Positions 1-46,883 of a DNA stretch of 64,000 nt are shown piece by piece (positions within the stretch are counted from its first letter, which is position 1; every line of letters starts with the position of its first letter). The stretch lies in NCBI GenBank assembly GCA_017473115.1, contig JAFUNC010000009.1:1-64000 (forward strand), written 5' to 3'. The DNA is from Lachnospiraceae bacterium (GTDB lineage: Bacteria > Bacillota > Clostridia > Lachnospirales > Lachnospiraceae). Position numbers and translations under genes: made by a program. The notes beneath the pieces are model-generated. The model was given only the letters and a program-made list of their open reading frames with translations, did no database searches and had not been told where the DNA came from.

Positions 1-52
1 AGAACTGTTAGAGATTTCACTTGGCACTACAACAGAATCTGAAGGAGGCTGA
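1..52 (+). CDS. C-terminal tail of an upstream gene (partial)
   Basis: An open frame enters the window in frame 2 and ends at a TGA at 50-52 (last residues ELLEISLGTTTESEGG). The ribosome binding site of the following recombinase gene lies inside its last codons, the tight packing expected of two genes in one operon. The tail is too short to name. It could belong to another recombinase or small protein of the same mobile element, but that is inference. Confidence 0.35.
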   Translation, partial: ELLEISLGTTTESEGG

Positions 53-44087: not shown

Positions 44088-44116
44088 TTGACAACAGAAA
44101 AACAAAGTGCTATTTT
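44088..44116 (+). promoter_or_regulatory. Promoter of the T-box transcript
   Basis: TTGACA (44088-44093), 17 bases, then TATTTT (44111-44116). It lies immediately upstream of the T-box leader, about 470 bases before the coding start. Confidence 0.6.
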
Positions 44117-44119
44117 TAA

Positions 44120-44392
44120 TTTTGTAAAAGGCAATGACGAAGAAGACCCGGAAGTGCTGATTTTCAGAGAGTCATCGGTTGGTGTGAGGTGACAGTCAAG
44201 TATCCAAGTGGTTATCCCTTCTGAGCCGGAGTCCCGAACGCAGATAACTGCCAGTAGACGATTCCCGTGATGTCGCGTTAAGACAAAAGACTTGATGGAG
44301 TCTGCGAGAGGTGTTATGAACACAATTTGAGTGGTACCGCGGGTAGAATGTTACTCGTCTCAAAGAAATCTTTGAGACGGGTTTTTTTGTTT
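44120..44392 (+). ncRNA. T-box leader (tRNA-sensing riboswitch)
   Basis: A full T-box leader. Stem I shows the conserved A-G-A-G-A-G motif, GGTTGGTG and the CTTCTGAGC segment before its lower 3-prime side. The T-box sequence TGGTACCGCGG lies at 44332-44342; GAGT (44329-44332) pairs with ACTC (44353-44356) to form the antiterminator. A 13-bp terminator (44353-44365 with 44370-44382) and T run compete with it. Uncharged tRNA would stop termination. The specifier region reads GTGGTTATCCCTTCTGAGC, and TGG, GTT, TAT or ATC could be the codon; I cannot choose without folding. It precedes a HTH-cupin-acyl-CoA synthetase gene, not an aminoacyl-tRNA synthetase. Confidence 0.93.
44353..44389 (+). terminator. 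T-box intrinsic terminator
   Basis: A 13-bp stem (44353-44365 with 44370-44382, one G-T pair) with a seven-base T run. Its left arm overlaps the antiterminator pairing region, so it is the regulated terminator of the T-box leader. Confidence 0.9.
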
Positions 44393-44582
44393 CTCAAAGG
44401 TGTTCATCAATGTAACTATTAAAAGTTACATTCGCAAAATCGCCTTTTCAAGGCTTCCATTTTGCTCATGATGGCTTCGCGCCATATAGATGTATAATAA
44501 TATCCCTTGGCAAGTAAACTTGCGAGTTCTATTTTTATACATCTGCATAACTTTGAATAGTTTCAAAATGGAGGATTATGAA
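44393..44582 (+). ncRNA. Structured leader that could hide the Shine-Dalgarno site
   Basis: Between the T-box terminator and the ATG there is no gene but several complementary segments. An 11-bp closing helix pairs 44454-44464 with 44564-44574, covering the AGGAGG-like ribosome binding site. Inside lie three hairpins: ATGGC/GCCAT (44471-44475, 44481-44485), AGATGTATAA/TTATACATCT (44488-44497, 44535-44544) with a nested GCAAGT/ACTTGC, and AACT/AGTT (44549-44552, 44559-44562). A further hairpin TGTAACT/AGTTACA is at 44411-44417 and 44424-44430. This reads as a multi-branch fold that would block translation. No known riboswitch class is recognised; it is not proved to be functional. Confidence 0.5.
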
Positions 44583-46883
44583 ATGACACAGAACACAAAC
44601 ATGTTGGAAGACAAAATTCAGGAGGTCGGAAGACGTATCCAGGCATTGCGCGAGGATATGAATTTAAGCGCAGCAGAATTGGCAGAGAAGATTGGATTGA
44701 CAGAAGATGAGTATCTTCAGTATGAATCCGGACAGAAAGATTTTAGTTTTACTTTTATTTATAAGATTGCACATGTCTGCGGTGTAGAAATGACCGAAAT
44801 TATGGAAGGTGAAAGCCCCAGCCTTACAGAGTACACCATTACCCGTAAGGGCGAGGAAATGCCTATCGTAAGACGTGAAGGTTTTGTTTACAACCGGCTT
44901 GCTGCTAAGTTTAAAAATAAATTGGCGGAACCCTTTTATGTTAAGATTCCTTACTCTGAGGAGGCATTAAATCCCCCTTACAGTTTCTCGACACATACCG
45001 GTCAGGAAATGGATATCGTAATCAAGGGCAGTCTTAAAATGATGATCGGTGAACGTACCGAAATTCTTCACGAAGGTGACTGTATCTACTATGACAGTTC
45101 CACACCTCATAACGAAATCGCTCTTGGCGGTGAAGATTGTGAAATCTATGCAATCGTTATGAATCCCGAAGAAGGCGGCGTTGCCGAATATAAAGAAAAG
45201 GTTAAAACTTTTACAACCACCAACGTTGACCTTGCGAAATTAAAAGCACCTGTGTATGAAAAGTTTGTAGAAACTACAGTGGATGACAAGGGCGTTGTAA
45301 ATTCTGTTAAGTTTAAAAACGACGATACCTTTAATTTTGCATATGATGTTGTGGATGAATTGGCACGTAAGGCACCCAGCAAGACCGCTATGATTCACGT
45401 TACCAATGATAAAAAAACCAGAAGATTTACGTTTGCGGATTTAAGCCGTTACTCAGCACAGACTGCAAACTATTTTGCGGATATGGGAATCAAAAAAGGT
45501 GACCGCGTAATGCTTGTATTAAAGAGACATTACCAGTTCTGGTTCTCAATCCTTGCATTACATAAACTTGGTGCAATCGTAATTCCTGCGACCAACCAGT
45601 TAAAAGACCACGATTTTGAATATCGCTTCAATGCGGCAGGTGTCAGTGCAATCGTATGTACCGGTGACGGCGATGTGGCGGAAGAAGTAGATAAGTCCTT
45701 AGCGAAGTCCCCTACTGTAAAAACCAAGATTATTTGTGGCCGCTCCAAAGAAGGCTGGGACAATTTCGATGAAAGCCTTGTAAAATACGATACCGTATTC
45801 GAAAGACCTGCAGATGCAGCTTGCGGTACGGATACCATGTTGATGCTCTTTACATCAGGAACCACAGGCTATCCCAGAATTGCAGCGCACAATCACAAGT
45901 ATCCTTTGGGACACTTCCTTACAGCAAAGTATTGGCATAATGTAGATCCGAACGGTTTGCATTTTACCATCTCTGATACCGGCTGGGGTAAGGCATTGTG
46001 GGGTAAATTGTACGGACAATGGTTATGCGAAGCGGCAACATTTGTTTATGACTTTGACCGTTTTGATGCACACGATATTCTGCCTATGTTTGCAGAATAC
46101 AAGATTACTACTTTCTGTGCACCTACCACCATGTATCGTTTCTTCATCAAAGAAGATTTGAAGAATTATGACTTGAGTTCTATAAAATATGCAACCGTTG
46201 CGGGTGAAGCAATGAATCCTGAGGTTTATAACCAGTTCTTAAAAGCAACCGGTATCCGTATTATGGAAGGCTTTGGTCAAACCGAAACTACCCTTACCAT
46301 CGCAAACTTTGTTGGTGAGACCAATAAAATCGGTTCCATGGGTAAGCCCAGTCCTTTGTATGACGTGGATATCCAACTTGCAGACGGTAAGCCTGCCGGC
46401 GTAGGTGAAGTGGGTGAAATCGTAATCCGTACTGAAGAAGCAGTACCTAACGGATTATACGAAGGATATTATCTTGATGAGGAAAAGACCAAAGAAGCAT
46501 GGCATGACGGTTATTATCATACCGGTGATACCGCATGGAAGGATGAAGACGGATTCTTCTGGTATGTTGGCCGTGTGGATGACTTAATCAAGTCTTCCGG
46601 TTACCGTATCGGACCCTTCGAAATCGAAAGCGTTATCATGGAATTACCTTATGTTCTGGAGTGTGCCGTTGTTGCCGCACCCGATGAAATCAGAGGCCAG
46701 GTTGTAAAAGCAAACATCGTTCTTACCAAGGGAACACAGCCTTCCGACGAATTGAAGAAGGAAATTCAGGTATACGTTAAGAATCGTACCGCACCTTATA
46801 AGTACCCCAGAATCGTTGAGTTTATGGAAGAACTTCCTAAGACCATCAGCGGTAAGGTACGTCGTGTAGAATTGAGAAAGTAA
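44583..46883 (+). CDS. HTH-cupin-acyl-CoA synthetase fusion
   Basis: A 766-residue three-part protein. Residues about 10-75 are an XRE-type helix-turn-helix (LREDMNLSAAELAEKIGL). Residues about 120-190 are a cupin with H-x-G-x-E-M-D and E-G-D-C-I-Y-Y-D. Residues about 230-766 are an AMP-forming acyl-CoA synthetase: LFTSGTTGYPRIAAH (A3-like loop, with Arg where Lys is usual), GFGQTET, YYHTGDTAWKDEDGFFWYVGR and the catalytic ISGKVRR Lys near the end. It should activate a carboxylate as an acyl-CoA. The regulator-like N-terminus may sense the substrate or control output. A T-box and a second leader precede it. The ATG at 44583 follows GGAGGA; a start at 44490 lies in the leader hairpins and is rejected. 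Confidence 0.9.
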   Translation: MTQNTNMLEDKIQEVGRRIQALREDMNLSAAELAEKIGLTEDEYLQYESGQKDFSFTFIYKIAHVCGVEMTEIMEGESPSLTEYTITRKGEEMPIVRREGFVYNRLAAKFKNKLAEPFYVKIPYSEEALNPPYSFSTHTGQEMDIVIKGSLKMMIGERTEILHEGDCIYYDSSTPHNEIALGGEDCEIYAIVMNPEEGGVAEYKEKVKTFTTTNVDLAKLKAPVYEKFVETTVDDKGVVNSVKFKNDDTFNFAYDVVDELARKAPSKTAMIHVTNDKKTRRFTFADLSRYSAQTANYFADMGIKKGDRVMLVLKRHYQFWFSILALHKLGAIVIPATNQLKDHDFEYRFNAAGVSAIVCTGDGDVAEEVDKSLAKSPTVKTKIICGRSKEGWDNFDESLVKYDTVFERPADAACGTDTMLMLFTSGTTGYPRIAAHNHKYPLGHFLTAKYWHNVDPNGLHFTISDTGWGKALWGKLYGQWLCEAATFVYDFDRFDAHDILPMFAEYKITTFCAPTTMYRFFIKEDLKNYDLSSIKYATVAGEAMNPEVYNQFLKATGIRIMEGFGQTETTLTIANFVGETNKIGSMGKPSPLYDVDIQLADGKPAGVGEVGEIVIRTEEAVPNGLYEGYYLDEEKTKEAWHDGYYHTGDTAWKDEDGFFWYVGRVDDLIKSSGYRIGPFEIESVIMELPYVLECAVVAAPDEIRGQVVKANIVLTKGTQPSDELKKEIQVYVKNRTAPYKYPRIVEFMEELPKTISGKVRRVELRK

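Follow-up and report, generated by a model that had tools for sequence, protein, structure and literature searches.

An isoleucine T-box leader before a gene for a helix-turn-helix-cupin-acyl-CoA synthetase fusion that probably activates 2-methylbutyrate for isoleucine synthesis

The window analysed here, a stretch of 64,000 nucleotides (nt) from a Lachnospiraceae bacterium (assembly GCA_017473115.1, contig JAFUNC010000009.1), carries on its + strand a T-box leader followed by a single large gene (44583..46883), whose product of 766 residues joins a helix-turn-helix (HTH) and a cupin domain to an acyl-coenzyme A (acyl-CoA) synthetase. All four Pfam domains lie in a single frame, as an earlier interpretation made from the letters (the sequence-only reading) had proposed. 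They are HTH_3, of the XRE/Cro type (44637..44801; 41.6 bits, cut-off 23), Cupin_2 (44991..45155; 39.8 bits, cut-off 27.2), the AMP-binding N-domain of adenylate-forming enzymes (45357..46472; 195.4 bits) and AMP-binding_C (46620..46856; 76.6 bits). HTH_3 and Cupin_2, the pair by which XRE-family cupin regulators are recognized, are both above cut-off, and this part of the protein is probably a second, protein-level sensor. An AlphaFold2 model of the fusion had a predicted local distance difference test score (pLDDT) of 78.2 and a predicted template modelling score (pTM) of 0.63. The open-reading-frame list begins the frame at an earlier ATG, at 44490; translation most likely starts at the ATG at 44583, which stands 8 nt behind the ribosome binding site GGAGG (44570..44574).

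The leader matched the T-box model RF00230 at 44125-44365 on the + strand, over the full model (1-219), with 89.0 bits and an E-value of 5e-20, and has the layout of a transcriptional T-box. It follows a sigma-70-like promoter (44088..44116) made of TTGACA (44088-44093) and TATTTT (44111-44116), 17 nt apart, with a TG before the -10 box and 10/12 positions in a consensus scan. Below the specifier loop, the Stem I helix is formed by GAAG (44139..44142) and CTTC (44218..44221). The T-box sequence TGGTACCGCGG, predicted partner of the 3' end of the uncharged tRNA, occupies 44332..44342, where the sequence-only reading had also placed it. That reading had likewise called a complete T-box and a terminator with a T run, both of which were borne out; the intrinsic terminator (44354..44388; RNA fold and terminator scan) consists of a 12-bp stem (44354-44365/44370-44381) and a run of seven T (44382-44388). 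Its antiterminator pairing, 44329-44332/44353-44356, had to be replaced, the antiterminator (44326..44364) being formed by two helices, 44326-44331/44359-44364 and 44339-44346/44351-44358, around the T-box bulge. The T-box sequence UGGNACCGCG thus sits in an antiterminator that is mutually exclusive with the terminator, and the 5' arm of the latter (44354-44364) is common to both. The terminator folded with -17.6 kcal/mol (z -5.58) and the antiterminator with -10.9 kcal/mol (z -1.39; 22 of 200 shuffles folded equally well). About 180 nt separate the terminator from GGAGG.

A default Rfam scan of the window reported no T-box because the leader's score lies about 4 bits below the gathering score of 93, and the match was recovered by its E-value. 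By gathering score the leader falls outside the family, so the T-box call rests on its features. In a genome-wide search, which recovered the window leader at the same position, four of the 10 RF00230 matches in the window's own genome passed 93 bits and six were below; among the latter were T-boxes before ilvA (84.4 bits) and before two trpB-like genes (85.6 and 81.6 bits).

The same T-box was found in relatives. A search of 84,980 species genomes with the protein gave at least 596 relatives, of which we kept the 80 best loci; in 52 of these the T-box motif stands before the gene. The 80 come from named records of Lachnospiraceae, Ruminococcus, Saccharofermentans, Avimonoglobus and further Clostridia, whose titles point in many cases to rumen or hindgut. 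The genus was sampled with 31 genomes, 28 of which hold a copy at least 63% identical, the window's included and one copy truncated, and the T-box was present in 25/25 copies with sufficient upstream sequence. Outside this count were three copies with 131, 127 and 2 nt upstream (L096, L097 and L117; such labels are our own handles for loci and genomes), a partial copy of 343 residues (G007) and two genomes without a full copy (G002, G011). The comparison covered seventy leaders that differ at the gene start. Though collected with the looser expression TGG.ACC.CG, all of them carry the identical 11 letters TGGTACCGCGG, and TTGACN-15..19-TANNNT was present upstream in 64 of the 66 full-length leaders. 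The distance from the T-box motif to the first matched codon varied from 77 to 301 nt. Specifier, helix and T-box were conserved down to 62% protein identity.

We considered the possibility that the leader is a relic and that, in the strain of the window, the gene is transcribed from a promoter past the terminator, a case that the sequence-only reading had named as fatal to its proposal. A weak promoter-like site, TTGGCA-17-TATTTT (9/12), does lie past the terminator at 44507-44535 and could bypass the switch. Yet such sites occurred there at chance level (two found, 1.8 expected), 22 of the 70 leaders leave little room for one, the T-box motif being separated from the first matched codon by 77-110 nt, and the conservation down to 62% protein identity speaks against a relic. 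This explanation therefore seems very improbable. Between the terminator and the ribosome binding site there is also a palindrome (GATGTATAA...TTATACATC; 44424-44552, - strand) with a weak match to the Clostridiales-1 RNA (27.5 bits, gathering score 48).

Read in the Rfam specifier columns, Stem I presents ATC (44214..44216), a codon for isoleucine corresponding to the anticodon GAU. The three letters were ATC in 66 of the 66 distinct leaders that could be read, the window's included, with an expression blind to them, and in 65/65 leaders collected by a narrower expression. The other four of the 70 could not be read, L028, L092 and L111 being cut by contig ends and L041 being without the specifier arm. 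In L041, whose T-box leader lies upstream of 4009, the missing arm may reflect a deletion or an assembly fault. In the 65 leaders the base before ATC varied (T in 57, C in 6, G in 2), as did the base after it (C in 46, A in 14, G in 4, T in 1). The helix below the specifier loop showed compensatory changes: in the 59 of 70 leaders covered by this count it was GAAG/CTTC in 47, GAGG/CCTC in 4, GGAG/CTCC in 1 and unpaired as extracted in 7, the last probably representing misplaced arms. Since this helix fixes the edge of the loop, ATC sits at the position given by the TBDB rule, 2-4 nt from the loop end (PMC7778990, in the part consulted).

The same columns were read in other leaders of the window's genome. 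They gave UUC before pheS, CUC before a LeuA-like gene, UGC before cysE-cysS, UGG before each of the two trpB-like genes and AUC in the leader nearer to ilvA; the target names were read from the translations, and ilvA additionally passes TIGR01127. The ilvA-ridA-leuA-leuC-leuD operon (contig C3; L134/L007/L010), in which ilvA and leuA of L134 were assigned by Pfam and the ridA-like gene, leuC and leuD by reading of the translations, is preceded by two T-box leaders in tandem. When the specifier columns were aligned, the window leader and the near ilvA leader had ATC and the far ilvA leader had CTC (leucine), so that the tandem CTC and ATC leaders place one operon serving both amino acids under the control of both. 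The LeuA-like gene with its CUC T-box appears on two contigs (L002, L003) with the same scores and protein, through duplication or assembly overlap.

The sequence-only reading had left the specifier open between TGG, GTT, TAT and ATC, and of these ATC was retained. The frames TAT, GTT and TGG were rejected, their letters not being conserved, although TAT (tyrosine) does fit 57 of the 65 leaders; GTT would denote valine and TGG tryptophan. The serine frame TCN fits all 65 by letters (TCC 46, TCA 14, TCG 4, TCT 1). It was rejected on the position of the columns, where Rfam and the TBDB rule (PMC7778990, same part) give ATC, on the correct reading given by the same columns in six further leaders of the genome whose targets are clear, and on the alternation of ATC with CTC before ilvA-leuACD. 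A specifier in any other frame is thus scarcely credible. These findings indicate that an isoleucine T-box almost certainly precedes the HTH-cupin-synthetase gene, and they provide the covariance-model reading of the leader that the sequence-only reading had suggested.

Which acid might such a gene activate? The best solved relative of the synthetase is 3ETC, the Macs enzyme of Methanosarcina acetivorans (671.6 bits, the next 353.8), which was also the first fold match of the AlphaFold2 model (Foldseek; E 7.8e-66, 52% identity over the synthetase); it is archaeal and, unlike the window protein, has no HTH-cupin part. According to the sections of PMC10455477 consulted, its preferred acyl substrate is 2-methylbutyrate, the adenylates of many other acids are not transferred to CoA, Trp259 is critical for substrate binding, and a Gly replaces the Trp of acetyl-CoA synthetase. 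Six active-site residues of 3ETC, W237, W254, K256, W259, C298 and G351, are identical in the window protein, with residue numbers that depend on an offset of 23 chosen to fit these residues. We take W237, W254, K256 and C298 to be pocket positions; the title of 3ETC names Lys256 and a Cys. Alignment with 3ETC and these residues suggest a 3ETC-like acyl pocket in the AMP-binding N-domain, and the six residues speak against a pocket of the acetate type. The closest NCBIfam model was NF047394 (MbcS, methylbutyryl-CoA synthetase). MbcS salvages short branched acids, and that of Staphylococcus aureus is selective for 2-methylbutyrate and isobutyrate, with propionate, acetate and isovalerate as poor substrates (PMC10026030, in part). 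Judged from these relatives, the substrate is very probably a branched short-chain acid. Because the specifier is that of isoleucine, 2-methylbutyrate is the predicted one; from the list of acids in the sequence-only reading it stood, with 3ETC as nearest structure, and isobutyrate, phenylacetate and indoleacetate did not.

The sequence-only reading had also pointed to 2-oxoacid:ferredoxin oxidoreductases, and genes for one, 2-oxoisovalerate:ferredoxin oxidoreductase (VOR), were found in the window's genome. At L132:2287-6956, three VOR subunits, an unfused HTH-cupin protein and a synthetase are encoded in a row: VorA (NF005507, where it is named VorB; 546.8 bits, cut-off 399), a thiamine pyrophosphate (TPP) subunit, a POR gamma subunit, the HTH-cupin protein of 199 residues and the synthetase of 554 residues. 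A ferredoxin-like frame, read from the sequence, lies directly upstream of VorA. The synthetase is 50% identical to that of the window over 522 residues and the HTH-cupins are 30% identical over 169; a PDB sequence search with the unfused HTH-cupin gave no match at 1e-3. The same gene order was present in five other genomes of the genus (L135, L136, L138, L139, L140). The window gene is thus a fusion of two genes neighbouring VOR, which ties the family to a 2-oxoacid:ferredoxin oxidoreductase. VorA was found in 43 of the 46 genomes searched and in 28 of the 31 of the genus (partial in G007). A single class IV aminotransferase was present in each of 10 genomes searched; the four tested in NCBIfam (G000, G005, G014, G066) were branched-chain aminotransferases above cut-off, and an IlvE-type enzyme was found in 5/5 genus genomes searched. 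Neighbourhoods were compared for 13 reference genes, taken from the VOR, IOR and ilvA-leu regions, and none of them is conserved beside the T-boxed gene. Elsewhere (L131:684-4696), an adenylate-forming ligase adjoins an iorA/iorB-like pair, a candidate aryl-acid counterpart for the aromatic amino acids.

We then considered the genes of the textbook isoleucine pathway, with searches that covered 21 genomes for ilvC and 16 for ilvA. In the genus, ilvD was present in 5 of the 31 genomes (G000, G001, G016, G027, G030) and was missing from 20 of the 25 with a T-boxed copy, or from 9 of 12 when only T-boxed genomes with a completeness of 90% or more and a contamination of 5% or less were counted. 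Among six genus genomes searched for ilvC, G000 and G027 had it, and no ilvC scored above cut-off in G004, G005, G014 and G018; G004, G005 and G014, which are 99-100% complete, lack both genes. The search also took in 15 genomes from outside the genus; all except G066 have a T-boxed copy, and eight of these 14 had no ilvD. Ruminococcus flavefaciens needs branched acids. Among the five Ruminococcus genomes in this set (G061-G065; four named R. flavefaciens, one metagenome-assembled genome), four had no ilvA, ilvC or ilvD above cut-off. The FD-1 record (4.6 Mb) has all three, with ilvA and ilvD each present twice at equal scores, and is perhaps not clean. The T-boxed enzyme is therefore kept both with and without the textbook pathway.

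This distribution bears on the possibility that the enzyme under the isoleucine T-box activates propionate, propionyl-CoA then being carboxylated to 2-oxobutyrate and converted to isoleucine through IlvBN, IlvC and IlvD. The specifier would be the same, the window's genome has ilvC and ilvD, and 3ETC is able to adenylate propionate (PMC10455477, sections as above). In contrast to 2-methylbutyrate, propionate does not fit where the textbook pathway is gone, because its route needs IlvC and IlvD, and the T-boxed gene is kept in the 20 genus genomes without ilvD and in the four without ilvC. Propionate is moreover a less favourable substrate of 3ETC, among whose adenylates many are not passed to CoA (PMC10455477), and a poor one of MbcS (PMC10026030), as far as the consulted parts of these papers report. 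We consider propionate activation quite improbable.

Another possibility is that 2-methylbutyryl-CoA primes anteiso branched-chain fatty acids, a use that normally drains isoleucine. 2-Methylbutyryl-CoA is a FabH primer, and MbcS of S. aureus provides a precedent (PMC10026030, in part). Yet the VOR operon carries the unfused homologues of the window gene, VorA and the IlvE-type aminotransferase are kept where ilvC and ilvD are missing, and control by the charging of tRNA-Ile points to protein synthesis. Fatty acid priming as the main purpose thus appears improbable, and the lipid and isoleucine uses of 2-methylbutyryl-CoA could coexist.

The enzyme might also be a broad one that takes 2-methylbutyrate, isobutyrate and isovalerate and serves isoleucine, valine and leucine alike. 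MbcS accepts both 2-methylbutyrate and isobutyrate (PMC10026030, in the part seen), the paralogue in the VOR operon has the same six pocket residues, so that these do not separate the substrates, and the loss of ilvD removes the textbook valine route too. Against such breadth, the specifier is that of isoleucine in all 66 readable leaders and never that of valine or leucine, and the VOR operon holds a second synthetase, perhaps for other acids. Broad service of this kind is possible though unlikely. The second synthetase itself, also MbcS-like, may serve isobutyrate or isovalerate.

The preferred interpretation is that the main role of the enzyme is to activate 2-methylbutyrate for isoleucine synthesis under the isoleucine T-box, which we regard as likely. 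When isoleucine is short, the anticodon of uncharged tRNA-Ile(GAU) would pair with the ATC specifier (44214-44216) and the free 3' end of the tRNA with TGGT of the T-box bulge. This would stabilize the antiterminator and let transcription enter the HTH-cupin-synthetase gene. The enzyme would adenylate 2-methylbutyrate, which arises by fermentation in rumen and hindgut and which neighbours would leave behind on breaking down isoleucine, and convert it to 2-methylbutyryl-CoA. VOR, encoded elsewhere in the genome, would carboxylate the latter with reduced ferredoxin and CO2 to 3-methyl-2-oxopentanoate, and IlvE, a branched-chain aminotransferase, would yield isoleucine, so that tRNA-Ile would be recharged and the switch would close. 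The T-box, its specifier, the make-up of the gene, their conservation and their co-occurrence are observed; the substrate, the switching, the direction of VOR and the role of the HTH-cupin part are what we infer from them. The core idea of the sequence-only reading, a T-box governing acid activation for reductive carboxylation, is supported by the specifier, the kinship with 3ETC, the VOR operon and the missing ilvC and ilvD.

Several observations weigh against this interpretation, in addition to the promoter-like site past the terminator. As to the leader, energy folding of Stem I alone gave no T-box-like fold (z +1.28), and for this reason Stem I was read from the model alignment and covariation. 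One leader of the window's genome (L009) reads AUG in the specifier columns and its downstream genes have no identifiable link to methionine, so that it is no control either way. (At L009:1268-1752, a TwoAYGGAY RNA on the + strand, 114.6 bits, adjoins this opposite-strand T-box.) Nor was tRNA-Ile(GAU) found among the 28 Rfam tRNA matches of the genome, whose assembly is 85% complete; a pattern search for tRNA-Ile in eight genomes found only genes with a CAT anticodon, and none in G000. As to the distribution, one clade of close Ruminococcus paralogues of the fusion protein has, in a quick tree of 85 rows, no T-box in 25 of its 27 rows. Members without it include L045, L046, L049-L053, L055-L057, L060, L076, L083 and L086, and the exceptions with it are L047 and L054. 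In the rows without it, a scan allowing two mismatches gave no T-box either, and the six upstream regions inspected show promoter-like sites and no leader. The remaining rows have the T-box except L064, L075 (only 131 nt upstream) and L090 (one mismatch), and strain SAb67 has both kinds, L029 with and L052 without.

As to the enzyme, the six pocket residues are identical in 52/52 other rows outside the T-box-less clade, in 27/27 rows inside it and in the three VOR-operon synthetases compared. Because these paralogues share them, the residues do not single out 2-methylbutyrate. The score with NF047394, 439.3 bits, is below the curated cut-off of 850, so that the window protein is not classed as MbcS. 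As to the pathway, a motif scan of six genomes found no T-box motif before the first genes of the VOR operon (L139 has only 293 nt upstream of vorA), and one TGGCACAGCG lies within the HTH-cupin frame of L138; only the first step therefore seems to be tRNA-controlled. VorA was not found in G015, G017 and G024 of the genus, all of which have a T-boxed copy. All three of ilvA, ilvC and ilvD are present in the genome of the window itself, where the reductive route is therefore probably supplementary. Six of the 14 T-boxed genomes outside the genus keep ilvD (G064, G067, G068, G070, G072, G073); G067, G070, G072 and G073 keep ilvA, ilvC and ilvD, and G068 keeps ilvC and ilvD.

Each of the three elements, T-box class, enzyme fold and carboxylation route, is already known; their pairing was not found in the open-licence literature searched. 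The window leader shares Stem I, ATC, T-box sequence, antiterminator and terminator with isoleucine T-boxes such as the one before ilvA-leuACD and can be aligned with that one along its length. It differs in preceding an acid-activating enzyme rather than a tRNA ligase, a transporter or a step of the textbook pathway, in scoring slightly under the gathering score, and in that its Rfam alignment shows no apparent AGUA strand of the specifier-loop motif. That rumen bacteria reductively carboxylate branched acids to form amino acids was reportedly demonstrated with tracers by Robinson and Allison in 1969. 2-Methylbutyrate is described, with reference to that study, as an isoleucine precursor in rumen fermentation (PMC7356843, in part), and the chemistry predicted here is the same, to which we propose to add a dedicated enzyme and control by tRNA-Ile. 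MbcS, in contrast, feeds fatty acid rather than amino acid synthesis.

The nearest precedent that we found is in Geobacter, where a conserved leader precedes iorAB-paaK and is listed under tryptophan (Table 2 of PMC2700814). Like the present locus, it combines a conserved upstream sequence with a ligase and oxidoreductase set assigned to amino acid synthesis; it differs in the amino acid, the enzymes and the phylum, and in the consulted part of that paper only the leuA leader is called a T-box. The pairing of a T-box with such a synthetase was not met in the parts consulted of PMC2494555, PMC7778990, PMC3766115 and PMC2700814. Among the matches listed by our searches of open-licence papers, no title or abstract linked a T-box to an acyl-CoA synthetase or 2-methylbutyrate, a link that T-box survey tables or subscription journals may hold, and no dedicated, regulated 2-methylbutyrate-activating enzyme was found in the open-licence literature searched.

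Synthesis of branched-chain amino acids by carboxylation of branched short-chain acids has long been reported in rumen and gut bacteria, and isoacids are fed to ruminants. The present locus would extend the T-box regulon to the salvage of a fermentation acid by a regulator-enzyme fusion. Since the end product can be read from a T-box in the genome, the RNA may assign a substrate to a vague acyl-CoA synthetase annotation. Dependence on cross-feeding, with 2-methylbutyrate replacing isoleucine, could thereby be predicted from sequence and tested in strains that can be cultured, R. flavefaciens among them. More tentatively, control may operate at two levels, the RNA reading the charging of tRNA-Ile and the fused HTH-cupin part reading the acid or its CoA or AMP product and regulating its own gene and the VOR operon. 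We hold this to be doubtful; if true, the protein would be a trigger enzyme coupling substrate supply to amino acid demand, common to rumen and hindgut bacteria that live on the isoleucine waste of other species.

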